Under the pieces are notes generated by a model that saw nothing but the letters and a program-made list of their open reading frames with translations, was not told the DNA's origin and ran no database searches. The position numbers and the translations under genes were made by a program. Positions 10,282-28,822 of a DNA stretch of 29,310 nucleotides are shown piece by piece (within the stretch, counting starts at the first letter, position 1; each line of letters starts with the position of its first letter). Source of the stretch: a bacterium. GTDB lineage: Bacteria > B130-G9. The stretch lies in assembly GCA_021160245.1 (NCBI GenBank), contig JAGHCW010000129.1, forward strand, positions 1-29,310, read 5' to 3'.

Positions 10282-12696
10282 ATGGCTTTAGGGAGACGTT
10301 CATCAGTCGGCTTGGCTGCGCTTGCCTATCTTGCGATTCTGATAACGTCTTTCCCTGCCCACGGCCGCGGCTCACTCTTTCCGCTGGCGGACGCGTTGCA
10401 GGGCTGGGAGACATCCATCCACACAAAGCGCCTCGCCGAATCCTATCGGAAGGAGAATTATCCTGAGCTTCTCTCGGGTCTTGATGACCTCGCCACGAGC
10501 TTTCCTGGGGCGTTCGCTCTCGGTGGATTCGACTATCTAAGAGCCCAAGCCCTGGGCAGAAGCGGTCAACATGGGCGGGCAATAGAGCTGCTTGTCGATG
10601 TTGCCAATAGATATCCTGTGGTCGGTAAATATGCTCTGTCGGACGCGATTCTATGGTGCCAGAAGGCGGCGCTTTGGGAGAGGGCGGCAGAGATTGCCAA
10701 TACCCTTGCTGGGAAATACCAGCCAGATGCCGTTCTCAAGGAGACTATCTCAGGACTTGCGTCAGCCCTTGTGGATGCCGGGAGATTCGGGGATGCGCTC
10801 CCATATTTTGAGAATCTGGACGAATTGTACGGAACGAAAACCAATCGTCAATTCGCCTTCGAAATAGCGAGTTGTCTGGAGCGTCTCGGGCGGACCGAAG
10901 AGGCGTGCGAACGCTACTTCACATTCGTTATGAACAAGAGGCGGGATGATTTCAGCGGGAGTTCGCTCACAAGACTTGAGGCGCTTGGCGAGAGGGGCTG
11001 CTCCGACGCAAGGCTTTCTGATGGCGCTTTCTACCTAGCAGCAGGTGAGATTAGGCTTTGGAACCATGATCATAAGCAAGCGCTCTCTTATTTCCGGAAA
11101 GTCCTTGCGAAAAAGAAGCCTGCGAAACTTATGAGACAAGCCAAGAAGCAGATAGCTCTTTGCCTCTTCAAGCAGAGGAACTATAAAATGGCGATTGAGC
11201 ATCTTCAGGAATTAAGAAAGCTCTACAGATCCGGGGATGAGCTCGCCTGGATTGATCTATATCTTGGTCATTGCCACAGTCGCCTAAAGGAGAGCGCAAA
11301 GGCAATTGAGAGATACAGAGCGGCCTCGCTTGGGGCCAACGGGACCGGCAATGGGACTGCGGCGAAAGCCTCGTACCTTCTCGGGCGTGAGCTTGAGGCG
11401 GCCAGAATGAACCAGCAGGCCATAGCAGCATTTCAGGCCTTGCTGGAGGAATTCCCCAACTCTTCGAACGCCTCGCACGCGAGGTGGCGGATGGTACTTG
11501 CCTCATTTGCGCGAGGCGACAAAACGGCGGCTGAGGATCTGCTCCTTGCGCTCGTTAAACTCGGTACCAAAACGCGTTACTACGATGACGCCTGTTTCGC
11601 GCTCGCAATGCTGTATGAATCGCTTGGCAGACATGATGACGCGGCCGTTCGATATGCTGACAACTACGCTGAGTTCCCCAACATATACTTCGGCCTGGCA
11701 TCATTAGACAGGCTGCGCGAGCTAAAGTCCAAAGGGCTTGTGAAACCCACGATTGCGAGGGATGCCCTTCAACGCGCGGAGGTGTATCATAGTGAAGGCA
11801 AAATCTCAAAGTACCTTATGGCCCTGCAGAAGGCGAGAGTCCTCGCTCCAGACGGTTCCGAAACATCTGAGAAGGCGGCGAAACTGAGGGAGTCAATGCT
11901 CAGAAGCGGGCCCCGAACGTCTGCGCTTTTTGACGGAATGAGCAGCGACTTGGCCTCGTTTGTGACCCCGTCGTCCAAAGAAGGAGGCAATAGCCAAGAT
12001 GCCGCGCGTTTCTTCATGCTCTTGGGCCTGGACGACAGAGCGGCGAGCATTCTCCGTTCGCTTTCTTTGAGGAGACCTCGGGATTTCGAGCTGCTATACA
12101 CCTTGATCAAGACATTTGAGAAACTGGGCAGAAAGGGCGAGCCACTGCTGCTCTCAGAGCGGGCATTCAAGAGGTTCTCGGACTTGCGGCTCACCGTTTT
12201 GGACTTACCTGATTGGCTTGCCGAGGCGCTTTATCCGAAGGGCTTCTCGATCCAAGTTGAGAGGCAGAGCAAACTGCACAATGTTGAGCCAGCGATTGTG
12301 TACGCCATAATCCGTGAGGAAAGCAGGTTCGCCGTTGAAAGCACATCATCGGCCGCAGCCCGAGGCGTCATGCAGCTGATTGTCCCGACGGCGAGGCAGG
12401 TTGCCGAATCGCTTGGCATGGGCGAACTGCCGCTTGATCAGCTCTACGAGCCTCATATCAACATAGCGCTTGGTGTCAAATACTTGAGGCAACTTCTTGA
12501 CCGGTTCGACGACCGAACAATACTTGCCCTCGCCTCATACAACGGCGGCCCGACGAATGTCGATCGATGGCTTGCGGATTGCCCCGACGACGTTGCGGAC
12601 GAGGAGTTCATCAACGCGATCACGTTCAGCGAGACGCGCCGCTACGCCCAGAAGGTTCTCGCCTCATACCGGTTCTACAAGCAGATATACGAGTAA
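10282..12696 (+). CDS. slt: Soluble lytic transglycosylase (Slt70-like) with TPR-rich N-terminus
   Basis: The enzyme cleaves peptidoglycan glycan strands to 1,6-anhydro-muropeptides in the periplasm. A signal peptide is visible at residues 1-28 and ends near AHGRG. Residues 40-620 are alpha-helical TPR-like repeats resembling the Slt70 superhelix. The SLT domain lies near residues 660-800: REESRF with catalytic Glu680, ARGVMQL, YEPHINIALGVKYL, and ALASYNGGP. At 804 residues it is longer than E. coli Slt70 (about 645). The start ATG at 10282 is preceded by GTGAGGG. It follows leuD by 69 bases and may share its transcript. Confidence 0.93.
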   Translation: MALGRRSSVGLAALAYLAILITSFPAHGRGSLFPLADALQGWETSIHTKRLAESYRKENYPELLSGLDDLATSFPGAFALGGFDYLRAQALGRSGQHGRAIELLVDVANRYPVVGKYALSDAILWCQKAALWERAAEIANTLAGKYQPDAVLKETISGLASALVDAGRFGDALPYFENLDELYGTKTNRQFAFEIASCLERLGRTEEACERYFTFVMNKRRDDFSGSSLTRLEALGERGCSDARLSDGAFYLAAGEIRLWNHDHKQALSYFRKVLAKKKPAKLMRQAKKQIALCLFKQRNYKMAIEHLQELRKLYRSGDELAWIDLYLGHCHSRLKESAKAIERYRAASLGANGTGNGTAAKASYLLGRELEAARMNQQAIAAFQALLEEFPNSSNASHARWRMVLASFARGDKTAAEDLLLALVKLGTKTRYYDDACFALAMLYESLGRHDDAAVRYADNYAEFPNIYFGLASLDRLRELKSKGLVKPTIARDALQRAEVYHSEGKISKYLMALQKARVLAPDGSETSEKAAKLRESMLRSGPRTSALFDGMSSDLASFVTPSSKEGGNSQDAARFFMLLGLDDRAASILRSLSLRRPRDFELLYTLIKTFEKLGRKGEPLLLSERAFKRFSDLRLTVLDLPDWLAEALYPKGFSIQVERQSKLHNVEPAIVYAIIREESRFAVESTSSAAARGVMQLIVPTARQVAESLGMGELPLDQLYEPHINIALGVKYLRQLLDRFDDRTILALASYNGGPTNVDRWLADCPDDVADEEFINAITFSETRRYAQKVLASYRFYKQIYE

Positions 12697-15656: not shown

Positions 15657-16268
15657 TCAAAATATGCTGAACATTGGATCAAAGAGCCCTGACTCATGAA
15701 AGCCCTCGATGACCTCCAGAATTCCTATGAGCCAGATGAACCATAAGGCGCTAGAGATATGTCGTCTGAATTTTACAGGGCGGACGACATATTCTTCTGG
15801 CTCTTTTAGTAGGGACATTTGGGGGAAGAATTTGGGTGTATTCCTAATATATTCCGCGAGCTTCTCACCGTAAATCTTATTCAGACGTTTCTCTTCTGCT
15901 CTGATGACAGCGGGGTAATAGACTGCAAAAGCCACCAGAATCACGGCAGGTATCACAAGCGTTTCAGAGGCCAATCCAACGCCAAGCGCACCTAAAAAAC
16001 TGAAGAAGTACAGCGGATTCCTTGTGATTGAGTATGGGCCGGCTGTGATGAGTTGTTCTGTCTTATATCCTGCAATATAAAGGGAACACCACAATCTGCC
16101 CAATGAGCCGATTGCAGCTAGAGTGCATCCTGCAAGAAAGAGCAGAGATGCAACGAGAGACGAGTCTCTTTCCCAGGCACTTTCAGAAAGGACAATGATA
16201 ATGAGCGCTAGGGCACCCAGAACCTTGGATAACCTCGTTCGCCAATACTGCAATCCTGATTCTGCCAT
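15657..16268 (-). CDS. Isoprenylcysteine carboxyl methyltransferase (ICMT/PEMT)-like membrane protein
   Basis: The protein has four to six hydrophobic segments. The ICMT/PEMT-family core reads TAGPYSITRNPLYFFSFLG, followed by AEEKRLNKIYGEKLAEYI with the EExxL and Y motifs. In this family these residues bind S-adenosylmethionine and the active-site Arg/Glu. Bacterial members have largely unknown substrates, and phospholipid or isoprenoid-like methyl acceptors are suspected. The ATG at 16268 follows GGAAGGG, so it is preferred over the upstream ATG at 16304, and gives 203 residues. A last hydrophobic segment follows the catalytic region. Confidence 0.82.
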   Translation of the reverse strand: MAESGLQYWRTRLSKVLGALALIIIVLSESAWERDSSLVASLLFLAGCTLAAIGSLGRLWCSLYIAGYKTEQLITAGPYSITRNPLYFFSFLGALGVGLASETLVIPAVILVAFAVYYPAVIRAEEKRLNKIYGEKLAEYIRNTPKFFPQMSLLKEPEEYVVRPVKFRRHISSALWFIWLIGILEVIEGFHESGLFDPMFSIF

Positions 16269-16451
16269 TGTGTCGCCCTTCCAGCATTCTGCCCAATAGC
16301 GCACTCTGTCCTGCGCGATGATCTTGATTCCTTAATGAGGGCCGTTGAGGTCTCCAGTCGCTGTGCTTCAATTATCTACACGAGTAGCCGTACAGAGAAT
16401 AACCAAATCAAGGGCAGCATGTTCCTCGGCGGCGAGGCTCTTAGCTCCAGA

Positions 16452-19316
16452 CTACTCATACCATTCCATATCAATGCCGTAGCCCCAAATAGTGGGTCCG
16501 GTTTGGTGGCGCCATTCCTCGCTGTCTGCGCAGAGGGGATTCGAGCCTTCTGGATTCTCAAAGGTATAAGTATCAAGCCCACGCGTGTCCACGAAAACGC
16601 CGATATTGAACATCTCGTCTCGGAATGAGCCATCGGGGTTGCGTGGATAAGCTGCGCCAAAGGACTGCTTGTTTGACGCAAAATAGGTGTCGGCGCCGTA
16701 TCTATCCCAGAAGAAGCCGATGCTATTGAGGTCGCCTGAGCCGCCGCTCAGCCTGTTGACGAGGTATTGATCGTCGCCATCGCCGTCGATGCAGATGCCA
16801 ATCGAGCCGTCACGGGCGTGGCCTAAGTACCGATACTGCTCATCAACGTCGAATGAGTTGTATTGGTCGTCGCCTGAGAGATCGACCATGCAGCCTATAG
16901 CCATGTGAGGCGCAGAGCCCATGGAGTACTCCCAGGCGCGGTAAGTGTCGTTTCCGCCTCGTTCCTCGAATATCCCGAGCGCCCACCAATAAGCACAGCC
17001 CTGGACATAAACCGGCCCCCAGTAATCATCATTACCCGCGCCGTCAACGACAATCCCGATGCCGCCGGCGAGGCTTCGACCGTCCCCTCCGGTTGCGGCA
17101 TCTGCTCGGCGTCCGTTGCCTGCTCCTTGCGCAATGGCGACGTTTGTGTAGAATATGTCCACGTATATTCCCTCGGCGTGATAGTCATCGTCCCCCTCGA
17201 GGTCAACGATAGCGCCAATACCGAGTGTTGCGCCATAGCCCTGGCTCTCCCGCAGGCAAGTATATGAATCGGCGCCAGATATGTCCATCAAAAGGCCAAC
17301 TCCAGCGTGAGCTGCGCCTTGAGTCCAAAAGGCATTGCTGACGTTGCTGTCGTAAACGTCATCGCCCTCGAAATCGTATAAGAGGCCGGTGCCGTGCCAC
17401 GCGCAGGCCATGCCAGATTGGCCGCTTGAGTACTCGTCGTTGCCAGATACGTCAAAAACCGCGCCTACGCCAAAGAGCCCGCAGCAGAAGCTCGCGGCGC
17501 CACTCCCACAAGCGTAAACGTCATCCCCAGCTACGTCAATTATCGCTCCGATTGGATGCGAGAATGAACGTGGGACAGCATGGTTGCCGTTGTATCTGTC
17601 GTTGCCGCCCAAATCCACAATCAGCGAATACTCATCCATGATTCGTTGATCGCCAGTTCCAAGCACGCAAACTTCTCCGGCCGGTGAGGCGAACTCGATT
17701 TTATCAAAGTCCGCCACAAGGGGATTCTGGCCAAGCCAACCCACGAAGTCCGAGATCGCGGCCTGGACGCCAGCCGTGAACTCGCATGAACCCTCGCCGA
17801 GGCTTGGAAGGTCGAGCTCATACATCGCCTTGAAGGCCGGAGCGTCTCTGTCTTGATGCTGCCAGGGCTCCGTGGCCATCGAATAGAGAGCGGACCTGCT
17901 CACCTCGTCCAGGTCTCCAATCGAGATGCCCAGCGCATCTGCCAGAAACTCTCTGTCGAACGCCGCATCGATTTTCGGCGTCGCTGCGACGGCAGCATCG
18001 ACGATCGCGTTCACAAACTCCTGCGCCTCAAGAGGGAGCGAATCCCAACGGCCCTGATCGTCCGGCGTCTTGAATTCATAGTCCTCGGCGCCTCTGAAGA
18101 GCTCTGGCTTTCGGCATGGCCTTTTCCTGTCAATCGTCTGCCCCTCGAATGGCAGAAGGTCAAAGCAATAAGAAAGACATTCACTGGCGTCATTCGAATA
18201 GGCCAGCAGGTGATCACCGACCTCGCCACTGAAGGCGGTTACGTCATTAACATCAGCCCAGAGTTCTCGCACTCTGTGCAATCTGAACTCGTGCCCATAG
18301 AAATCGCAGCGACTCATCTCCTCGTCAGTAAATCCGAGTCGCCCACCAGCGAGTCCGGTGTTTGCAAGGACATGGTCCCAGAGCTCTTCGGGCGGGACGA
18401 GATCTGTCCTGCCGGCAGATGCCTGATGATGAAGGCCAAATGCCCAGTTGAGAGCCTCGAGATCGGAAATCCACTCACCCGTCTGGGCATCGGTGAAGAC
18501 CCCATACCAAGTATAGAGCCCGGCGGGGAGCGTTATATTAAGGGCGAGGTCCGCAATCTGATACCCCGCGATGGCAAAACCCGGCGGAAGATTCGCTGCA
18601 AATCCATCGGGCACACCGCCAAATGTCGGCCAGTAAAAGAAATCGCCGCCAATCTGAACCGCGATATAGAGGATGACATCAACGTCGCAATAGCCGGGAT
18701 TCGCAACGTCCACAAAGAGCCCCATCGAATCGCCCGGCATATAAGGCCTCATGCCGGCCTCGTCCGGGTCCAAGTACAGATCGAGCGTCGGGCGCTCCTC
18801 ATATAGGATGGCGTCAATCGCCTCGACAGCAAACTCCTCGCGACCTGTTCGATAGCCGAGGCGCACCATCCGAATCGTCTGTGATCGATCAATCACGTAA
18901 AAGACCGGAGTATTCCCATCCTCATCTTGCTTATATTTGTCTAGAAAATCGCCCGATAAGTCCGCCGCCAGTTGGAACGTGATGTCATGTTCAGCAGCGA
19001 AAGCTCGAATGTCGTCGAACGAGTCGGTCTCGGGGGCCACATTCACACCTAGCACAACAACTCCCCTGTCTTTATAGACTCGATGCACGGCCGCCTCATA
19101 GGCCTCGGCGCCCTGTGCGCATTTGCTGGATGATACATTGAATAGAAATAGCACGAGCACCTCATTCGGGAAATCGGCGAGGGTGATGTCCTCGTTGCCC
19201 AGGCTCTTGACGGTGAAGCTCGTGGCCTGGTCCCCCTCCAGCAGAAGGGCATGCGACAGCGTGGGAACGAGTATGAGAAAAGTCAGCGTCATCAGAGACA
19301 GAGATCTACCAATCAT
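16452..19316 (-). CDS. Exported 954-residue protein: redoxin domain, beta-sandwich, and GDDxY repeats
   Basis: A signal peptide (residues 1-23) precedes a thioredoxin/peroxiredoxin-like domain (about 26-172) with VVVLGVNV and the cis-Pro segment NTPVFYVID. In the active-site loop only Cys66 is present (SSSKC). It could be a peroxidatic Cys in an SxxC setting, or half of a lost CxxC. Residues 176-295 look like a beta-sandwich with PGD, YWP and LPAGLYTW. Residues 300-540 are mixed and Cys-containing. From about 560 to 920 there are 12 repeats of the form GxxxDxxGxDxY spaced mostly 26-30 residues apart, probably a Ca-binding or beta-solenoid structure. AAGGAG lies 8 bases before the ATG. I know of no named family with this full layout. 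The location is periplasmic or extracellular by inference. Confidence 0.88.
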   Translation of the reverse strand: MIGRSLSLMTLTFLILVPTLSHALLLEGDQATSFTVKSLGNEDITLADFPNEVLVLFLFNVSSSKCAQGAEAYEAAVHRVYKDRGVVVLGVNVAPETDSFDDIRAFAAEHDITFQLAADLSGDFLDKYKQDEDGNTPVFYVIDRSQTIRMVRLGYRTGREEFAVEAIDAILYEERPTLDLYLDPDEAGMRPYMPGDSMGLFVDVANPGYCDVDVILYIAVQIGGDFFYWPTFGGVPDGFAANLPPGFAIAGYQIADLALNITLPAGLYTWYGVFTDAQTGEWISDLEALNWAFGLHHQASAGRTDLVPPEELWDHVLANTGLAGGRLGFTDEEMSRCDFYGHEFRLHRVRELWADVNDVTAFSGEVGDHLLAYSNDASECLSYCFDLLPFEGQTIDRKRPCRKPELFRGAEDYEFKTPDDQGRWDSLPLEAQEFVNAIVDAAVAATPKIDAAFDREFLADALGISIGDLDEVSRSALYSMATEPWQHQDRDAPAFKAMYELDLPSLGEGSCEFTAGVQAAISDFVGWLGQNPLVADFDKIEFASPAGEVCVLGTGDQRIMDEYSLIVDLGGNDRYNGNHAVPRSFSHPIGAIIDVAGDDVYACGSGAASFCCGLFGVGAVFDVSGNDEYSSGQSGMACAWHGTGLLYDFEGDDVYDSNVSNAFWTQGAAHAGVGLLMDISGADSYTCLRESQGYGATLGIGAIVDLEGDDDYHAEGIYVDIFYTNVAIAQGAGNGRRADAATGGDGRSLAGGIGIVVDGAGNDDYWGPVYVQGCAYWWALGIFEERGGNDTYRAWEYSMGSAPHMAIGCMVDLSGDDQYNSFDVDEQYRYLGHARDGSIGICIDGDGDDQYLVNRLSGGSGDLNSIGFFWDRYGADTYFASNKQSFGAAYPRNPDGSFRDEMFNIGVFVDTRGLDTYTFENPEGSNPLCADSEEWRHQTGPTIWGYGIDMEWYE

Positions 19317-19591: not shown

Positions 19592-20281
19592 ATGTATAAC
19601 GGCAAAAGCGTATCAGTAGTTATCCCGTGCCTTAACGAGGAAGAGGGAATTGGTAAGGTCATTGCCTCGGTTCCCGCTTTTGTTGACGAGATAATCGTTG
19701 TTGACAATGGGTCGGAGGACGACACCGTCCGAATCGCGAGTGAGCTCGGGGCCAAGGTGATAGTCGAGCTACGTAGGGGATATGGTCGGGCGTATAGGAC
19801 GGGTTTCGAGAAAGTATCTGGAGATATAATCGCCACAACAGACGGCGATGGGACGTATCCTATACATCTTCTTGAGACGATTTTGGATGAGTTCTGGGGA
19901 AGGAATCTGGACTTCGCAAGCGCCTGTCGATTTCCTCTTCAGGACAACAGCACAATGAGCTTTCGGAACCTGCTCGGAAACAAGATATTCACACTGTGCG
20001 CAAGGCTGCTATTCTCCATGGACGTGAGGGATGTGTTATCGGGTATGTGGGTCCTAAAGCAAGATATGCTCTCCAGGATGCGACTCGAATCCGATGGCTG
20101 GTCGTTCTCTCAGGACATCAAGATCGAGGCGTTTGGCGTGCTCGGCGCCCAATGGGGAGAGATCAGAATCCCCTATGATGTGCGAATGGGTCAGGTTAAG
20201 CTTCCCGCCTGGCGGGCTGGTATTACGGCACTGCTTCAGATGTTTCTGAAGAGACTCCGCACTCGTCGGGAGAAGCCATAA
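19592..20281 (+). CDS. GT2 family glycosyltransferase (dolichol/polyprenyl-phosphate sugar synthase-like)
   Basis: The GT-A fold of family 2 is clear: VSVVIPCLNEEEGIGKVI at the N-terminus, IIVVDNGSEDDT, RRGYGRAYRTGF and the metal-binding TTDGDGTYP (Asp84, Asp86). LSGMWVLK and GWSFSQDIKIEA match polyprenyl-phosphate mannose/glucose synthases. These load a sugar from a nucleotide donor onto a lipid carrier for use by GT-C enzymes. Two such membrane enzymes (a GT39-like and a DUF2079-type protein) lie further on. At 229 residues there is no membrane tail. The gene precedes a PilZ gene by 15 bases, so they probably share a transcript. Confidence 0.9.
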   Translation: MYNGKSVSVVIPCLNEEEGIGKVIASVPAFVDEIIVVDNGSEDDTVRIASELGAKVIVELRRGYGRAYRTGFEKVSGDIIATTDGDGTYPIHLLETILDEFWGRNLDFASACRFPLQDNSTMSFRNLLGNKIFTLCARLLFSMDVRDVLSGMWVLKQDMLSRMRLESDGWSFSQDIKIEAFGVLGAQWGEIRIPYDVRMGQVKLPAWRAGITALLQMFLKRLRTRREKP

Positions 20282-20296
20282 TCGAGGAGCTAGGGA

Positions 20297-21007
20297 ATGC
20301 ATAAGAACGAAGAAGTGTTGACGCAGAGGGGCATCAGAGTATTTGCCAAGCCCCAGAATATAGAGCGCTTGCTCTCTTATCCCATCAAGGAGAATCTCTC
20401 TCTTTCCGTCCAAATAGAGGCCTATAAGCTCGATTTCCACTCACGATTCTCGCTCAAGACCAATCTCTCAGAGAAGCGACTCATACTAGAAGAGCCCTTC
20501 CCCAACTATGGGAACGAGCTCTTGAAGGGCAATCGTCTCATTACGGTGAAATGTCAGAAGGGCGATTTCGTTATATATTTCACCGTCCCCTTTGAGAAGG
20601 GCTGGGAGGAAGAGGGAACGTGGCTGTGGGCGCTGCAATATCCCCAGACGGTGGTTCTGAAGCGGCTTCGAATGCACACTCGCGTGGAGCCGGCCTCAAG
20701 CGACGTTCTAACCATTTATTTCGCCATCGACGAGGAAGCTGTACTCGGCCACATAATTCAGCTATCGCTTGGAGGCGCGCTTTTCGCGTCGCGAGTCCGC
20801 GAACCGACTATCCAAGTCGGGCAGGCGATTGAGGAAATGCACATCTCGTTGCCTGACAGAACACTGCGGATGAATGCCGAGATAGTCAGAGTCTCGGCGA
20901 TGAATTGCGCCATTCAGTTCACGTCGATGTCTGGTGAAGACAAAAACGCTCTGAGGAACTATATTGCCGACCGTGTCTCCCAGATCAAGCAGGGCTTTGG
21001 AGTTTGA
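20297..21007 (+). CDS. PilZ-domain protein with YcgR-like N-terminal domain
   Basis: PilZ domains bind cyclic di-GMP. The RxxxR motif is at Arg125-Arg129 (RMHTR), and the second motif reads QLSLGG at residues 155-160, where D/N-x-S-x-x-G is usual, so the first position is Gln. Residues 1-115 resemble the YcgR N-terminal beta-barrel in position and composition. The length of 236 residues matches the YcgR class. A GAGGAG before the ATG supports the start. Its tight spacing behind a GT2 gene suggests second-messenger control of glycan assembly (inference). Confidence 0.85.
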   Translation: MHKNEEVLTQRGIRVFAKPQNIERLLSYPIKENLSLSVQIEAYKLDFHSRFSLKTNLSEKRLILEEPFPNYGNELLKGNRLITVKCQKGDFVIYFTVPFEKGWEEEGTWLWALQYPQTVVLKRLRMHTRVEPASSDVLTIYFAIDEEAVLGHIIQLSLGGALFASRVREPTIQVGQAIEEMHISLPDRTLRMNAEIVRVSAMNCAIQFTSMSGEDKNALRNYIADRVSQIKQGFGV

Positions 21008-21334
21008 GAGCTAACTGCCGTCAACGCTCACTATCAAGGGCGATTCTTCTCGCTATACTGATCGCCGGTCTGGCATTATGCAGGCTTTGCTCCCTCCCAG
21101 AATTGCTCAACCGGCTCATCCGCAAGTCCAGTCCGGCATCCGACTGATTCCCATCTCTCCTCGGGTGGCTATTCTCTTGCCTCTCATTTTTAAGGTGGCT
21201 CCCGCTGCAAGCTGGAGTTTTCGCAATTCTCGGGCTTGGTTATTGAGGTGGAATGCAATCCTGAGAGGCTAGTATTTGGCTCCCCGTATGGAGAAGGCCG
21301 GTGAATGAATACGAGAGCTCCTCACAGCATGGGG
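21008..21334. other. Spacer between the PilZ gene and the polymerase gene
   Basis: No supported gene lies here. A 64-codon open frame at 21078-21272 has the look of chance sequence. The last part overlaps a decayed repeat listed separately. Confidence 0.4.
21248..21300 (+). repeat. Possible decayed repeat shared with 25387-25440
   Basis: Both stretches contain GTGGAATGCAAT followed by a similar GAGGC or GGAGGC block, a TTGGCTCCC or TTGGTTCCC block and a GGAGA or GGGAG end. By eye, about two thirds of 50 aligned bases agree. This may be an old mobile or regulatory element, and an alignment is needed to confirm it. Confidence 0.3.
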
Positions 21335-21364
21335 TTGAACGCAACCAAGTTGAGGTGCTATAGT
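21335..21364 (+). promoter_or_regulatory. Candidate promoter of the O-antigen-ligase-like gene
   Basis: TTGAAC (21335-21340) and TATAGT (21359-21364) are 18 bases apart and match 4 of 6 and 5 of 6 consensus positions. The start of transcription would be near 21371. That lies almost on the upstream ATG at 21375 and favours the later TTG start at 21426. Confidence 0.4.
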
Positions 21365-21425
21365 CGGCCAATAAATGAGCATAGTGGATCATCCCGGTCA
21401 TTGGATTAGTTTGGAGAACATTACA

Positions 21426-23537
21426 TTGATTCCATTAAGAGCGAAGCAAAGGTCACTTGCGAGGCGAGGCGCGGTGGTACGCGTTTGCGCGCCTTCGGTC
21501 TTCCTTATTCTGGTTATGCTCGGGGCCTTAGGTTGTCAGACGACATCGCTTGACTTCAAGTCCCCCGATGCTGCTCTTGCGGGAGGTTTCGAGTTAACAG
21601 CCGGCGAGTCGATGGGCGTTACGAATGACGTCTTAATTGTCCGACCCACACCCTCCGGCGAGGTTGCGTTCACGATGACCCCGACCGGGCTTTCGCCAAA
21701 ATGGTCGCCAATCATAGATATCGGTATCGGATTCTCAAACATCGAACGTCACGAAGTCGCCGTTTTCTGGCGAGGCGCAGAGCAGGAATTCAGCGACGAA
21801 CGCAGCGTCCGCGACGTATTCAATTTGAAGTACATCGCGGGGGGGGTGGTCCGGCAGAGACTAACGCTCAATCTCGCGGCGAATCCAGGTTGGCAAGGCG
21901 AGATTGCGGAGCTGAAGGTAGCGGTCGGAGACTTGCTCAAGCCAGTCGAGATCGAATTTGTGCGCTTCCCCGAATCAAAGCTCCTGTCGCTTTTGATGCC
22001 TCACAGAAAGTGGCTTGGCTTGGACAAGCGTATATTTCTTGCATACTTTCCGGTCGCGGTCATCTTGCTGCTGTGTATGCTAAACGTGTGGACTGTGATG
22101 AAGTCCGAGGGTCTAGGACTAAAGTCAAAGCTGCTAGATTGGCAGGTCAACGGGAGAAGCGCGAATGCCTCAGTTCAGGTGCTGTTCTGGGGGCTATCTC
22201 TGATTTTTGTCCTTAATGCAGTTTTCCCATTCGACTCCTTCCCATATCTGAGATTTCCGTTTGCTGGTGAGAGAATCGTTTATCCCGAAATGCTGCTTGG
22301 TCTCTTAATCATCTTGCTCGCCTCGCTAATCGGCCCTAGAATACTCTCCTTCTCCGCAACCGAATGGGCGTTTATGGGGTTCTTCGCGGCAGTATCGCTA
22401 TCGTTTCGGAATGCGCAATTTTTGAATCACGCCATGTCCCGGACGCTATTTTACATCGTCCCAATTCCGCTATTTTTGGCCCTAGGAAGGGGCATCCTGC
22501 ATACAAAGCGGGGCTTTATCCTTGCGAGGCGCTTCAGCATAGTCATCATGGCCTCGGCATTCTGGGTCTCATTCCACGGCGTGATGGAGGGTCTATTTAA
22601 TCACAATTACCTTCTGGACACATTCTACAGGGCGTTTGCGCCGATTTACGTCGAGTACACGTTCGGAATGCCGATCGCCTCATCTTTCGTTGACCCAAGC
22701 GTGCTGGGCTCCTTCATCGTCATGTGCATCCCGATTGCGCTCTTTTTTACGCTCTATGAGAAACAGAACAGGGCTTTGCGTATCTTCGCCATCATCTCGC
22801 TCATTGTCTTCACGATAGCTCTTATTTACGCCTGTTCATACGGGAGTTTAGTCGCCATATTTGTCGCGATGGCCCTCTACTTCCTCCGCAAGTCAAAGCG
22901 ACTTCTGATTGGGCTTGCGATTGCCGGCACAATTGCAGTTATCATCGCCACGGTTCTCGTTATCCCGCGATACAGGGAGTATATGGCAAATGTGAAGGAG
23001 GTTGACAGGTTAATTCGCGAACAAGGTCTCTCGCCTGATGAGATAGTGGAGCTCGCCGGGAAGCAGCTTGACCACACTCTGCTTTACTCGGTCAACCAGC
23101 GAGTGGACGGAGCGCTGAGCGCGCTTAGGATGCTCTCGGACTATCCGATATGCGGCGTCGGGATAGGCAATTTCGAGCCTCACTTTGACGATTACTATCG
23201 ACGCAACCCCGAATCGCTCAGGATATACAAGGTCCCGGACAATGTCCTCTTCATGGTTCTGGCCGAGACGGGCATCCTGGGGCTTTTGGCTTTCCTCGTT
23301 TTCGTTCTGGTCGTGGCTCGTGGTTGCATCAAGGCGCTAAAGGCTACCGAGGGCGACCGCTACTGGGATAACTACGTCTGGGCAATGTGCATAGCCGCAG
23401 TCGGTTTTGGCGTCAATTGCCTCGCCTACGACGGCATGTTCTGGTTCTCACCCAGCTTTGCTTTCTGGGCAATGCTTGGGATGTTATTGCCATTAGCTCA
23501 GATAGGGCAACGGAAAGATGTCTCCCGCCGGCGTTAA
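21426..23537 (+). CDS. O-antigen ligase/polymerase-like membrane protein with exported N-terminal domain
   Basis: Most of the protein is membrane helices of the Wzy/WaaL type. These enzymes polymerise or ligate lipid-linked glycans at the periplasmic face. The large periplasmic loop near the C-terminus carries VNQRVDGALSALRMLSDYP and GVGIGNFEPHF, typical of the ligase family. Before the multi-spanning part there is a first membrane segment ending in LGALGC and a soluble domain of about 170 residues of beta-rich type. That domain is not usual for the family. The frame opens with an ATG at 21375, but the TTG at 21426 has GGAG 9 bases upstream and gives a better signal-anchor, so I prefer it. 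The total is 703 residues, or 720 from the ATG. Confidence 0.85.
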   Translation: MIPLRAKQRSLARRGAVVRVCAPSVFLILVMLGALGCQTTSLDFKSPDAALAGGFELTAGESMGVTNDVLIVRPTPSGEVAFTMTPTGLSPKWSPIIDIGIGFSNIERHEVAVFWRGAEQEFSDERSVRDVFNLKYIAGGVVRQRLTLNLAANPGWQGEIAELKVAVGDLLKPVEIEFVRFPESKLLSLLMPHRKWLGLDKRIFLAYFPVAVILLLCMLNVWTVMKSEGLGLKSKLLDWQVNGRSANASVQVLFWGLSLIFVLNAVFPFDSFPYLRFPFAGERIVYPEMLLGLLIILLASLIGPRILSFSATEWAFMGFFAAVSLSFRNAQFLNHAMSRTLFYIVPIPLFLALGRGILHTKRGFILARRFSIVIMASAFWVSFHGVMEGLFNHNYLLDTFYRAFAPIYVEYTFGMPIASSFVDPSVLGSFIVMCIPIALFFTLYEKQNRALRIFAIISLIVFTIALIYACSYGSLVAIFVAMALYFLRKSKRLLIGLAIAGTIAVIIATVLVIPRYREYMANVKEVDRLIREQGLSPDEIVELAGKQLDHTLLYSVNQRVDGALSALRMLSDYPICGVGIGNFEPHFDDYYRRNPESLRIYKVPDNVLFMVLAETGILGLLAFLVFVLVVARGCIKALKATEGDRYWDNYVWAMCIAAVGFGVNCLAYDGMFWFSPSFAFWAMLGMLLPLAQIGQRKDVSRRR

Positions 23538-23713
23538 CGCATCAGGAGCTTTAGTTGAGCATGATGGGCAAATAGAAATTGGAGATGGATTGCCCGCTGT
23601 AAAGGCTTGATTCAGTTCCCGATGGTCTCTTGACAAGTGCCGCATAGGTCCAGATCGCGTGAATCTATATCCCGTTTGATGGCGGCTTCATGCTGATGCG
23701 AAAGCCTGATGCT

Positions 23714-25090
23714 CTACCGGATGCGCACAGGCATGCGCAGTACGATCTTCGTAGAATACGAAGACGCCTCCTCCGGGGTGAGGTCATAGACACCCAGAGT
23801 ACCGCCATTCCTGGTTGCCATAGCGTAGCATTCTGAGAGGCCAAGTCCGAATCCCGAGCCCTCGGGCTTCGTCGTATAGAAAAGATCGAAGATATATTCA
23901 CGCGACTCTTTGGGTATTCCGGGACCGTTGTCGAGAAATGCCACCTCAACGAATCGGCCATCATCGAACGGCGCCGTCCTGATCAGGACCTTCCGTGAAT
24001 CAGATTCGCCTTTGTGCTCAGATGCATAGTACGCCGCATTGCGCAGCAGCTCACGCAGCAGCATGTTTATCTCATTTGCCCTACACTCCACGCGGGGCAG
24101 CTCTTTAAGTTCAGTCTCCAGCGTCACGTTTCCCTCAGATAGATCGGTCGCGCAGACCTCCACTACTGTTCTAACGTCGTCGTTGAGATCACAGAATTGA
24201 ACGATTTCCTGGTCAAGCCGAACAAAATTCCGAATTCCCTTCACAATCTCTGAAATGCCAGAACTACCCTCCAGCACCCCCCGGAGGCATAATGGAAGGC
24301 CCTCTTCCAGCAGATACTGCAGTTCTTCCGCAGCCATGTCTGAACCACAAGTTATGTCCTCAAGTATCCCCCGAAGATCGCCGACATTCTGTTGAAGGGA
24401 TTCCACGCCGCCCATTATCTTGGCTAGCGCGTTATTTATCTCGTGTGCGATGCCTCTTGCCATGTGCTTCATCGAGACCATCTTAATCGACTGGAGATCA
24501 CGCAAGCGCTGCTCCAGAATCTCAACCAGCTGCTGATTCTCGTTTGAAAGCGTCGAGAGCCGTGTTGTATGCTGAGCATTCTGAAGGGAGAGCGTCGCCT
24601 GAACACAGAGCGCTCTTAGGTATTCTTCATCCTCGACCGTGAACTCGCCGTTCTCCTTATTCATAACTTGAAGAACGCCAACCAACGTCTCTCCGCGCTC
24701 TTGCAGAGGCATACAGAGCATAGAACGCGTGCAAAATCCCGACTCCGCATCTACGTTGGGATAGAACCGATTATCACCGTGGGCATCTGGAATCCGAACC
24801 GTTTCGCCGGTCTTGGCCACGTAACCGGCTATGCCCTGGCCCAACTTTAGCCGTATCTCCCCTATGTCATTGCCCTGAACAACGCGAGACCATATCTCGC
24901 CCTTCTCGCTGTCCATAACGTAAAGCGTGCTCCGCTCCGCCTCAAGTGAACGCGTCGCCACATCCACGATCGTCTCAAGGACGAAATCAACGTCAAGGCT
25001 CGAATGCAGTCGCTGATTGATACGTATCAACTCCCGAAGACGAGCGTTCTCCTTAAGCAGTTTCAGGCGATCACTGGAATCAGCGCTCAT
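23714..25090 (-). CDS. GAF-domain sensor histidine kinase
   Basis: A short N-terminal helix is followed by a GAF sensory domain (about residues 33-170) with GQGIAGYVAKTGE and the RSMLCMPL block. A helical linker leads to the dimerisation helix with the phospho-His in the H-box AHEINNALAKIMGG. The catalytic ATPase domain has the N-box ELLRNAAYYA, the G1 box DNGPGIP and GSGFGLGLSE. No membrane segment is seen, so it is cytoplasmic. The ATG at 25090 has an AGAGGT upstream and gives 458 residues, and an ATG at 25108 is also possible. No response regulator is adjacent, so it is an orphan kinase with unknown ligand and output. Confidence 0.93.
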   Translation of the reverse strand: MSADSSDRLKLLKENARLRELIRINQRLHSSLDVDFVLETIVDVATRSLEAERSTLYVMDSEKGEIWSRVVQGNDIGEIRLKLGQGIAGYVAKTGETVRIPDAHGDNRFYPNVDAESGFCTRSMLCMPLQERGETLVGVLQVMNKENGEFTVEDEEYLRALCVQATLSLQNAQHTTRLSTLSNENQQLVEILEQRLRDLQSIKMVSMKHMARGIAHEINNALAKIMGGVESLQQNVGDLRGILEDITCGSDMAAEELQYLLEEGLPLCLRGVLEGSSGISEIVKGIRNFVRLDQEIVQFCDLNDDVRTVVEVCATDLSEGNVTLETELKELPRVECRANEINMLLRELLRNAAYYASEHKGESDSRKVLIRTAPFDDGRFVEVAFLDNGPGIPKESREYIFDLFYTTKPEGSGFGLGLSECYAMATRNGGTLGVYDLTPEEASSYSTKIVLRMPVRIR

Positions 25091-25137
25091 GTATATAGGA
25101 CCTCTCATATCTGGAACCTAGCGTACGAAATACATGA

Positions 25138-25167
25138 ATCATATATCAGCCAAGCTAGAAATGGCAA
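25138..25167 (-). promoter_or_regulatory. Promoter of the histidine kinase gene
   Basis: On the minus strand TTGCCA (25162-25167) and TATGAT (25138-25143) are 18 bases apart, each matching 5 of 6 consensus positions. The predicted transcript starts about 40 bases before the ATG at 25090. This is among the best promoter patterns in the window. Confidence 0.5.
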
Positions 25168-25458
25168 CCCAATACTGCGCCCCGGAGAATAAGATTGACG
25201 CAGGTGGGTCAGGCTTTTGGGAATGCGATGGCCAGGCGCCGCCTTCTTTTGGGTGGTTTGACACCGCACTCCATAGTCACCCAGCGGGTACAACTCACGG
25301 ACCGATTCCTCTTAAACTCAAGACCTTTGGGCAGCTGGGAAGCGTGTTAGGTTGTTGTCGTTTTGGCTTATCTTGGGCTGCAAGGAAGTGGAATGCAATT
25401 CAGGGAGGCCAACATCTTGGTTCCCTGCAAGGGAGCGATTTGAATAGCCGTCGGTGTT
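25168..25458. other. Spacer upstream of the histidine kinase promoter
   Basis: No gene is supported. The part 25387-25440 resembles 21248-21300, as described in that entry. Open frames on both strands here are short, mutually overlapping and without family features. Confidence 0.4.
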
Positions 25459-25613
25459 GGAGGCTGTCCAATAAGTTGCATTTGCTGTTCTGCAGGGGGG
25501 CTTGTCTTCGCCCATCTATATTTGGGCAGACACAAGGCCGCCCCCACATATAGTATATCCCGTTGCACTATCGCAGCCATCTCCGTCGAAAACCAACATA
25601 TTAGACCGCCTCG
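25459..25613. repeat. 155-bp MITE-like element with 20-bp terminal inverted repeats (copy C)
   Basis: The left arm (25459-25478) and right arm (25594-25613) are inverted repeats with 16 of 20 bases matching, and the left arm contains GAGGCTGTCC. The interior is non-coding and shares GGGCAGACACA and a TAGTATA block with copy B at 12719. Related right ends occur at 28-47 and 12791-12810. Outward GAGGC ends resemble IS termini. No transposase is in the window, so it would be a non-autonomous element. Confidence 0.55.
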
Positions 25614-25625
25614 CTCAAACCGCGT

Positions 25626-27077
25626 CTAATAGACAGGATAATTGGAGAAACCGAGCCAAGTCGATATGGCCCGAATAGTCTCCCGCAGCGTCTCAGGATA
25701 CAAGAAGACGAAGAGGACGATTCCGCCATAAACTGCGGAGGCCGCGACAAAGAAGACCCTGGTCCTTGTCGATGATCTTGCCGTTTGATCCAAGAATATG
25801 CCCATAAATGTGATCATAAGCGGCTCAAAAGGCAGTCTGAACCTGTGTGACGCATTGACTGTCGCGCCCAGTATCCAAGCGCAGAGAAGCGGCGAAAGAT
25901 AGAGCATTGTGCCACAATATCTCCGCCTATAGAGAAATAGAAGAAGCCCTATCGCTGCAAATGGCAGCAGAAAAACATAGGACCCTACGAAGCGGCCATA
26001 ATCGTCAAAAATATGCCAGAACTTGACCGCCTCCTTCGCACTTTTCTTGAAATAGCGAATGGGATGCCGGCGAATTGTGCTCATCGCATCGTCCCAGAAG
26101 GCCTCGTCCCTGGCTTTCTCTGAGAGTCCCCCGAAGTTTGCCATCAAATCGCCCCCGAGGAATTCGAAGCCCGCCATCGGCCCCTTGAGCACGATCGGGA
26201 GCATCACGTCTCTAAGGGACTCGCCGGCATCCAGACGCCGCCTCTGCTCATTGATCCTCCGCCTGATCTCAATCAGACCCTCCTGCGGTATCGCCGACCA
26301 GAAATAGCCCTCCTCGGAGAGTGAGTTATGCTGATACCAGATAGTCGCGCCTCCATGGGTATCGAGCGGAATAAACGCCTTCATAACCATGGCATTTCGC
26401 GCAACCCAGGGTGAAAGGGTAGCAAGCGCGGCGGCGATGAGAATAGCTGTGCGCATCAACCGGAGACGTCGCGTTCCCCATTCGGGACCCATGGCCAAGA
26501 CCGCCCAGAGCGGAATTATCCCAACTAGCAGAAATAGCGTCGGTCTGCAGAGCCACGAGAATCCGAGCACAATGCCAGCAAGGACAGCGTCGAATCGGCT
26601 TGACGGGTCAGAAAATGTCTTTAGCAAGAGTAGCACACAAAGCACGACGAGCAGAGAGAAGAGATTCTCGGTCATATACGTTCTCGTCAGCACAATGTGG
26701 GGTGGATAAATCGCCAGTATGAGGGCGGCAATCGCCCCTGGACGCCTTCGACCAACGAGGCGCGATGAGGCGAATAGAAGGGCGAGAACCGCGAATGCCC
26801 CGACGAAGCTCTCCCCAATCGCGATTGCCGTCCAGCAGTCGTCCCCGAAGAGAAAGAAGAAGACCGAGAGGAACATTGGATAAAGCGGAAGACGATAGGC
26901 GGTTGGGTGTCCCGCCTCATAGCAAAGGCCGTTGCCCTCCGATATACTCTGGCCCAATATCACATATTCCGCCGCATCGATGTTATAGGGCAGTGCTGGG
27001 AAGAGGAGTGAATAGAATACGCGCGCAAGAAGTGCAATTGCGAAGACAATGACCGGAAAATGTCTTGATTCAAGCAT
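25626..27077 (-). CDS. GT39/GT83-like polytopic membrane glycosyltransferase (ArnT/PMT type)
   Basis: GT-C enzymes of this type transfer a sugar from a polyprenyl-phosphate carrier to proteins, lipid A or glycans at the outer face of the inner membrane. The first loop has an acidic residue in PYNIDAAEYVILGQ (Asp34), followed by AYRLPLYPMFLS, a family-typical arrangement. About eleven membrane segments follow. The C-terminal region has SHRFRLPFEPL. The 483-residue length fits. No ribosome-binding site is obvious before the ATG. The gene is divergent from the DUF2079-type gene and its stop abuts the MITE-like element. Donor and acceptor are unknown. Confidence 0.85.
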   Translation of the reverse strand: MLESRHFPVIVFAIALLARVFYSLLFPALPYNIDAAEYVILGQSISEGNGLCYEAGHPTAYRLPLYPMFLSVFFFLFGDDCWTAIAIGESFVGAFAVLALLFASSRLVGRRRPGAIAALILAIYPPHIVLTRTYMTENLFSLLVVLCVLLLLKTFSDPSSRFDAVLAGIVLGFSWLCRPTLFLLVGIIPLWAVLAMGPEWGTRRLRLMRTAILIAAALATLSPWVARNAMVMKAFIPLDTHGGATIWYQHNSLSEEGYFWSAIPQEGLIEIRRRINEQRRRLDAGESLRDVMLPIVLKGPMAGFEFLGGDLMANFGGLSEKARDEAFWDDAMSTIRRHPIRYFKKSAKEAVKFWHIFDDYGRFVGSYVFLLPFAAIGLLLFLYRRRYCGTMLYLSPLLCAWILGATVNASHRFRLPFEPLMITFMGIFLDQTARSSTRTRVFFVAASAVYGGIVLFVFLYPETLRETIRAISTWLGFSNYPVY

Positions 27078-27187
27078 TACTGGCGCCCAATCTGATATAT
27101 TCTGGCTTTAATCGCTCTTTATGGTGAAATATAAACCAAGAACCGGTCATTGCACACTAAGGAAACTATGATACTAGGTCAACCTGA

Positions 27188-28822
27188 ATGAAGACCAATA
27201 GAATAAGACTTGCCCCGCTTCTTGCGCTCGCGCTTCCTGTAATCGTGCCACTATGGGCGCCTCAGACATCTGACCTGGGTCTGGCTTACGGCTTCTATAG
27301 CTCCTGGGCCGGCATGGCAGCGCTTCTCCTTTTGGTTGTAGCCTGTGCCACGACAATTCATTTATCTGTCTGCCCGCGAACCGCGCCCAAAATCGAGAGC
27401 TTTTTGGCCCGACAGAATGCAAAAATCATCTACGGCTATTTTATTATATACGCTGCACTATTCTCAACTCTCGCCATCATAGCATATCTCAGATTCCACT
27501 CGGACGTCGATTATGCCAACTTCCTCCAGTCGTTCTTCTCCGCCGCACGAGGCCAGTTCTTCACAAACTGCCTCGCCAACGAGCCCCTGGAAATCAGTTT
27601 ATTCGCCGACCACAATTCGCCCATCATGTTCCTCATCCTGCCGATCTACATGCTCCTTCCGTTCCCCTCCTCGCTGCTTATCATCTCAACGCTCGTTCTG
27701 GCCGCCACCGCCCCAATCCTCTATCGCTACCTCTCAAGAACTCTGCGACTCGACCACACGACAAGCCTCGCAATATCCGCGGCCATCACGCTCGCGCCAT
27801 ATTACGCCTCGCAGCATTTTGAGGGGCTATCCATGGAGATGTTCGCTCCGCCGCTCTTTGTGCTTTGTTACGGCCTCTTCGAACGGCAGAAATTCGTGCC
27901 ATTCATGCTCACTCTACTCGTCCTGAACGCGGTCAAGGAGCAGGTCGCAATAGTTATGATGGTCTTTGTCCTCATCGCGCTCATTAAGCGGAGAGATAAA
28001 AAATGGGTGATCGGCCCGCTTCTTCTGAACGCCGCGATGCTCATCATCTCCTTCGGCATCGTCATACCCTATTTCCGGCCAACGGGCGACTACAAGCTGC
28101 TGTCGCCAGACACAGCGGCGTCGCTGCCCGAGCAGGCAATGCTCTATCTCAAAAGCCCCGGCCTCGCCGTGTCGCACGTCCTTGAGCCATTTAGACTGAC
28201 ATATCTATATATCGTGCTTGCGTCAAACCTATTCTTTCTCCCATTCATCTCGCTCGAGGGGCTCTTCATCGTCCCCTCTTTGGCCAAGAATCTCCTCTTT
28301 GTCGGATGGGCGGCGAACGTCATGTCAAAACACTCTCTCTTGATGTCCGGGGCAATGGCCGTCGTCGTGGGCAAATCCCTACTCAGGCTAACGAGGCCGA
28401 AAGTTGCGAGCGTCGGGTCGGTCGAGAGGGGCAGGTGGGCGAGAGCTATTGCGATATTGCTGCTCTTCTCATCAATCGCGCATGCGCCGACCTGGCTTCG
28501 GAATATCGATCTCTCAAAAGGACCGATGCACGCGGCGAAGGTCAAGCTGCTTGATATAATCCCAAGCGAGGTCCCGATCGCGCTGCCACAAGACATGCTA
28601 ACTCGCTTCAGCGCCCGAAATAAGCTCTACAACTCGGCCACGCCATTCGGCATCACGGGATTCGAGCGGGACGTTGATTACGTTGTGATTGATGAGCAGT
28701 TCCACCCAGAGCATTACGACTACGAGGCGCTCTTGAGGGATGCTGCTGACCGGAATGGGCTTTACATGGGCTTCAAGCTGATATGGCAATGCGACTCGCT
28801 ACACCTATTCAAGCGCCAATAG
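27188..28822 (+). CDS. DUF2079-type polytopic membrane protein
   Basis: The protein has about eleven membrane segments and an N-terminal loop DVDYANFLQSFFSAARGQFF, then FADHNSPIMFLILPIYMLLP. This Asp plus H-x-SP arrangement is what I recall for DUF2079, a family related to GT-C glycosyltransferases. The C-terminal 110 residues form a soluble domain, ending VVIDEQFHPEHYDYE and HLFKRQ. An AGGT lies just upstream of the ATG. The role is probably membrane glycan or lipid glycosylation, but this is inference from the family. It converges with the partial gene at 28832, with only 9 bases between stops. Confidence 0.8.
   Translation: MKTNRIRLAPLLALALPVIVPLWAPQTSDLGLAYGFYSSWAGMAALLLLVVACATTIHLSVCPRTAPKIESFLARQNAKIIYGYFIIYAALFSTLAIIAYLRFHSDVDYANFLQSFFSAARGQFFTNCLANEPLEISLFADHNSPIMFLILPIYMLLPFPSSLLIISTLVLAATAPILYRYLSRTLRLDHTTSLAISAAITLAPYYASQHFEGLSMEMFAPPLFVLCYGLFERQKFVPFMLTLLVLNAVKEQVAIVMMVFVLIALIKRRDKKWVIGPLLLNAAMLIISFGIVIPYFRPTGDYKLLSPDTAASLPEQAMLYLKSPGLAVSHVLEPFRLTYLYIVLASNLFFLPFISLEGLFIVPSLAKNLLFVGWAANVMSKHSLLMSGAMAVVVGKSLLRLTRPKVASVGSVERGRWARAIAILLLFSSIAHAPTWLRNIDLSKGPMHAAKVKLLDIIPSEVPIALPQDMLTRFSARNKLYNSATPFGITGFERDVDYVVIDEQFHPEHYDYEALLRDAADRNGLYMGFKLIWQCDSLHLFKRQ

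Follow-up and report, generated by a model that had tools for sequence, protein, structure and literature searches.

The TlpA/ResA thiol-disulfide oxidoreductases belong to the redoxin fold family PF00578 and have a WCxxC active site, while the parallel beta-rolls of RTX proteins, such as the R-modules of AlgE, the RTX part of CyaA and PML lipase, consist of tandem GGxGxDxUx nonapeptides (PF00353). The gene described here, from an uncultured bacterium, invites comparison with both. Residues 25-174 of its product are a clear homolog of the TlpA/ResA proteins, with which they have the cis-Pro region in common; unlike them, this domain lacks the first Cys and the Trp of WCxxC, and it is attached to a beta-sandwich and an exported repeat protein. 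In our opinion the repeat family, which is not listed in the domain libraries searched, is the main find, and the redoxin fusion through which we came to it is of more modest interest.

Layout of the open reading frame

The window (that is, the whole stretch of 29,310 nucleotides analysed, which is contig C121 of genome G000) has on its minus strand an open reading frame, P0001, that runs without an internal stop, and the plus strand across the same span is stop-rich. Its features are collected in Table 1. The original prediction was of an exported protein with a signal peptide, a redoxin domain, a beta-sandwich, a middle part and 12 repeats, and this layout is borne out by the reading of the frame, by the match to PF00578 and by a count of the repeat motif, with export being supported by a signal peptide that is hydrophobic when judged by eye. 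In Pfam, AhpC-TSA/Redoxin matches span residues 27-158, the best of them being PF00578 at residues 28-149 with an E of 7.3e-16, and no further model matches significantly; the thiol-disulfide and PrxQ matches in NCBIfam are all sub-threshold.

Table 1. Features of P0001 and their positions in the window.
Feature	Position	Strand	Basis or remark
Whole open reading frame P0001, 954 aa	16452..19316	-	Stop codon at 16452-16454
Signal peptide, residues 1-24	19245..19316	-	MIGRSLSLMTLTFLILVPTLSHA; hydrophobic, judged by eye
Redoxin domain, residues 25-174, TlpA/ResA-derived	18795..19244	-	PF00578; alignment; stand-alone paralog P0005
Cys66 of the redoxin domain	19119..19121	-	Alignment; kept in 3/3 fusions
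Beta-sandwich-like domain, residues 175-297	18426..18794	-	Recurrent exported module of genome G000
N-terminal helical domain typical of the repeat family, residues 299-540	17697..18422	-	Alignment to L102, profile comparisons
GxDxY repeat domain, 12 units of ~27 aa, residues 541-925	16542..17696	-	Motif positions, alignments
Insert after unit 6, residues 713-753, holds invariant R737	17058..17180	-	
Y776-W777, outside the repeated ladder	16986..16991	-	Invariant, 29/29 family rows
H804, outside the repeated ladder	16905..16907	-	Invariant, 29/29 family rows
C-terminal tail, residues 926-954	16455..16541	-	Common to P0001 and the unfused relative

Elsewhere in the window, a membrane methyltransferase of the PEMT/ICMT type lies on the same strand about 150 bases downstream of the frame (15657-16304, minus), an 804-aa TPR protein with an SLT lytic transglycosylase domain is found at 10282-12696 (plus), and the stretch 19592-28822 holds genes of a cell-surface type (GT2, PilZ, O-antigen ligase-like, GAF histidine kinase, PMT_2 and DUF2079).

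A fusion of two exported-protein genes

The alignments show P0001 to be two complete genes, each for an exported protein, cleanly fused into one. Residues 27-294 align (31%, 1e-45) with a stand-alone exported redoxin/beta-sandwich protein of 301 aa in the same genome (P0005), relatives of which, of like build, are present in G002 and G003, and residues 299-953 align (38% over 701 columns, 2e-137) with L102, an unfused exported repeat protein of 736 aa from a genome of a different phylum (G375). Since the two alignments end at residues 294 and 299, the junction must lie between them. The middle part, thought in the original prediction to be long and undefined, is recognisable as the helical domain that family members have ahead of their repeats. 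Residues 299-540 align directly with the helical domain of L102, and on this alignment they represent the N-terminal domain, approximately 240 residues long, of the repeat-protein family; profile support is weaker, at an E of about 1e-4 for P0001 against both the propeller-type paralogs described below and the far members of the family, these last two matching each other strongly (2e-17).

Does the fusion recur? It does, in three copies and two genera, so far as found confined to the phylum of P0001. The two further copies are in G003, which belongs to the family of G000 but to another genus, in pieces cut at contig ends that we infer to join into whole genes. The other 382 sampled genomes yielded no redoxin fusion, in a search of which one scan scored only two candidates per genome. 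It had been reasoned beforehand that homologs lacking the redoxin would leave the fusion isolated: nearly all relatives of the repeat part do indeed lack it, so that coupling to redoxin is not the essence of the family, and yet the fusion still recurs in its three copies. We therefore see the fusion as a local, lineage-specific event, and P0001 as a fast-evolving member of the repeat family to which a redoxin has been added as a module. Its terminal branch in the tree has a length of 2.62, and because the branch is so long its position among its relatives is unsure.

The repeat domain and its family

After residue 530 there are 12 GxDxY motifs, with their first Gly at 571, 597, 625, 651, 681, 708, 761, 788, 815, 847, 874 and 913, a number to be set beside the mean of 0.93 and maximum of 6 in 5000 shuffles of residues 531-954. 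The unit consensus, drawn from 342 units, is QGxGxxGxGxLxDxxG(N/D)DxYx(A/S)xxxS, and the region is acidic (64 D/E vs 18 K/R). The regular units expected originally, about 12 of them, are thus present, with the spacing of 26-30 residues revised to 26-32 except for steps of 53 and 39 at inserts, and what was taken for a run of repeats can now be described as a domain of fixed anatomy. Twelve units are likewise found in most far members, where a single longer step of 46-55 residues follows unit 6, some members being more irregular, and P0001 has this 12-unit spacing pattern, the unit-6 insert and the helical N-terminal domain in common with them. R737, Y776, W777 and H804 are also kept, being invariant in 29/29 family rows drawn from many families, and none of the four belongs to the repeated ladder, a pattern that speaks for a single specific site and against a free-running repeat. 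As judged from motif positions and alignments, the repeats form a single domain of approximately 400 residues and near-fixed 12-unit anatomy. The A2 pattern scan yielded no sufficiently conserved stretch.

A profile made from 11 rows of the repeat domain (A1) matches in 67 of 386 sampled genomes, representing 44 families, mostly along the length of the profile and with a best E of 1e-114 outside the phylum of P0001. It matches in 16 of the 17 genomes of one class, and in all four genomes of the phylum of G375, with up to 8 matches there; no relatives were found in viral contigs or in plasmids. The original prediction could put no family name to the repeats, and the copies of Pfam, NCBIfam and PDB that were searched have no match to them either, nor did the literature hold anything relevant on Coatesbacteria repeats, on GDDxY/GxDxY repeats or on combinations with redoxin, propeller or HEAT. 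The repeat protein is accordingly a member of a widespread family that is unlisted in the domain libraries searched. Some family matches contain one in-frame stop (G154:C46:2784-3935, and others in G032, G179, G244, G108, G371, G314 and G225), and these may be pseudogenes, assembly errors, cases of local recoding or stops at gene ends.

What fold might such a domain adopt? A model of the whole repeat domain, made from two rows, reached a pLDDT of 37 and was discarded as unusable. A four-unit fragment, modelled from four units aligned with the other units of P0001 and one ortholog, gave two strands per unit at a pLDDT of 63 and a pTM of 0.60; Foldseek found no match to it at E <= 0.001, and in VIA, at Z 3.8-5.7, several beta-solenoids and RTX rolls were listed. 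Among these, the RTX rolls have Z 3.8-4.7 and 14-25% identity, the highest identity among those listed, a Z below 6 not being diagnostic; a fold missing from the VIA list was not counted as evidence. The fragment model is thus compatible with a calcium-stabilised beta-solenoid of weakly RTX-like character, and proves nothing. The regular solenoid of the original prediction fits this fragment of low-to-medium confidence and gains nothing from the unusable whole-domain model. Assignment to RTX by sequence was rejected, there being no Pfam match for the repeat domain at E <= 10.

Partners of the repeat family

Partners were surveyed in 20 neighbourhoods from 20 genomes, all outside the phylum of P0001 and comprising 248 ORFs. 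In 8 of them a HEAT-repeat domain is fused C-terminally to the repeat protein (L059, L062, L065 and L071-L075) and matches separate neighbouring genes in other genomes; in another 8, an exported HEAT protein is encoded on the same strand as the next gene (7) or the next but one (1). The HEAT model, which was built from adjacent proteins first tied to the fused ones by BLAST, so that only the fused matches are an independent test of it, matches nothing else among the 248 ORFs, and no other gene group recurs in more than three of the 20 neighbourhoods. The partnership is thus usual in far members and not universal, and for that reason it cannot be called a defining feature of the family. In the stretches read from P0001's own phylum, no copy, P0001 included, has a HEAT neighbour, so the idea of a HEAT partner rests on other phyla. 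Other modules are also attached to family members, including a PDZ domain at the N-terminus of L087, L090 and L092, Ig domains, and a PQQ/BamB-like propeller in L002, L003 and L005 (G000:C74, C89 and C177), which have some 1040-1100 aa and consist of propeller, helical domain and 12 repeats; the phylum's other genomes hold relatives of these three paralogs.

A rival idea takes the repeat domain for an enzyme or a sugar- or lipid-binding receptor, for which R737, Y776-W777, H804 and the unit-6 insert would form the site and the repeats its frame. Polar and aromatic residues that stay invariant in rows from many families, and that occur only in the middle units, could mark an enzyme site equally well, and the constant unit-6 insert carries RYxDH-like residues in most far members; set against this, P0001 itself has no RYxDH-like motif, the domain matches none of the enzyme families by sequence, and the neighbourhoods contain no pathway operon, so that we consider this possibility rather unlikely.

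The redoxin domain and the beta-sandwich

The redoxin domain was aligned with the TlpA-like proteins and the peroxiredoxin of genome G000 itself. As foreseen, Cys66 is its sole Cys, and it falls in the column of the second Cys of the TlpA/ResA CxxC, which is also that of the peroxidatic Cys (C-P). All three fusions lack the first Cys and the Trp that precedes it, the active-site tetrapeptides being SSKC in P0001, DSRC and SSRC, whereas in three stand-alone relatives the CxxC is intact (CSPC, CPPC and CGPC). The peroxiredoxin motif PxxxTxxC is absent, with no Pro and no conserved Thr/Ser (C-3 is Ser, Asp and Ser in the three fusions), and the conserved peroxiredoxin Arg is absent too, a TlpA-type Pro standing in its place (NTPVFYVID vs VRAVFIVD of the genome's own Prx). 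With motif and Arg both missing, peroxiredoxin identity was rejected; the domain keeps the fold family and the TlpA cis-Pro region and has lost the CxxC, and we regard it as a degenerate TlpA/ResA domain.

This goes against the suggestion, made originally, of a thiol or peroxide sensor, in which Cys66 would be the group that reacts with peroxide or a partner thiol, the repeats relaying the signal or acting as an anchor. Cys66 is present in each fusion in the C-P column, and PF00578 does include the peroxiredoxins; however, Cys66 is the second Cys of a CxxC whose first is gone, the closest relatives are TlpA/ResA-like with CxxC, the Pro and Arg of peroxiredoxins are missing, another exported redoxin fusion of G000 has no Cys at the site, and the relatives of the repeat part have no redoxin, all of which makes a sensor or peroxidase improbable. 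With only three fusions, retention of Cys66 could reflect either chance or a retained thiol function. In L101 (G000:C4:9401-9811) an exported redoxin that has lost both active-site Cys is fused to Ig-like repeats, and this lineage may make a practice of using degenerate redoxins as modules.

The beta-sandwich module (residues 190-295), which has no Pfam name in P0001, recurs at more than 20 places in G000, in many exported proteins and often at the end of larger ones. A surface adhesin or S-layer-like matrix protein whose calcium-stabilised repeats play a structural part would suit this module, as it would an exported, acidic, Gly/Asp-rich and repetitive sequence, but across many families the repeats hardly change in number and order and have position-specific residues, where in adhesins repeat number drifts, and no cell-wall anchor was seen, leaving this reading with poor prospects.

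A working model and its significance

The reading that we favour, at somewhat less than even confidence for its parts taken jointly, is of a fused gene from a family of extracytoplasmic, calcium-stabilised solenoid scaffolds or receptors, in which the redoxin is a non-catalytic binding module. The family would be built from a signal peptide, a helical domain of approximately 240 residues and the 12-unit GxDxY domain, this last probably a beta-solenoid whose 27-residue coils have two strands each, as the fragment model suggests. The DxxGxDxY turns may stack as an acidic ladder, probably binding calcium and so rigidifying the domain after export, and R737, Y776-W777 and H804, around units 6-9, would line one putative specific binding site. 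Such a scaffold or receptor would be paired with protein-binding modules, usually HEAT and elsewhere a PQQ-type propeller or PDZ, and in P0001 the place of the partner module would be filled by redoxin plus beta-sandwich. Because the nucleophilic Cys of the CxxC is lost, the redoxin is most likely a binding module that is non-catalytic, or at most monothiol. More tentatively still, the GxDxY domain might be an undescribed calcium-stabilised beta-solenoid with one specific ligand site that, in many bacterial lineages, works with HEAT proteins as a two-part extracytoplasmic system, the partner being replaced in the phylum of P0001 by a propeller or an inactivated redoxin.

A large and strictly built exported domain that roughly a sixth of the sampled bacterial genomes encode, with no match in the copies of Pfam, NCBIfam and PDB searched, is in our view well worth pursuing, and its invariant residues and HEAT partner make the function of the family directly testable. 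The redoxin fusion, for its part, furnishes an example of a degenerate redox domain joined as an extra module.

Comparison with known systems

The RTX parallel beta-rolls and the GxDxY domain are alike in being exported acidic repeats with a GxD-x-hydrophobic turn and a short strand, and differ in that a tandem nonapeptide is replaced in P0001 by a unit of approximately 27 residues, present 12 times in a fixed pattern. The PBS-lyase/HEAT_2 repeat proteins, to which members of the family are usually fused or encoded close by, are absent in and beside P0001. The PQQ/BamB-like beta-propeller proteins come close in another way, since three paralogs in the same genome have a propeller on the same repeat domain, and P0001 has redoxin and beta-sandwich in the propeller's place.
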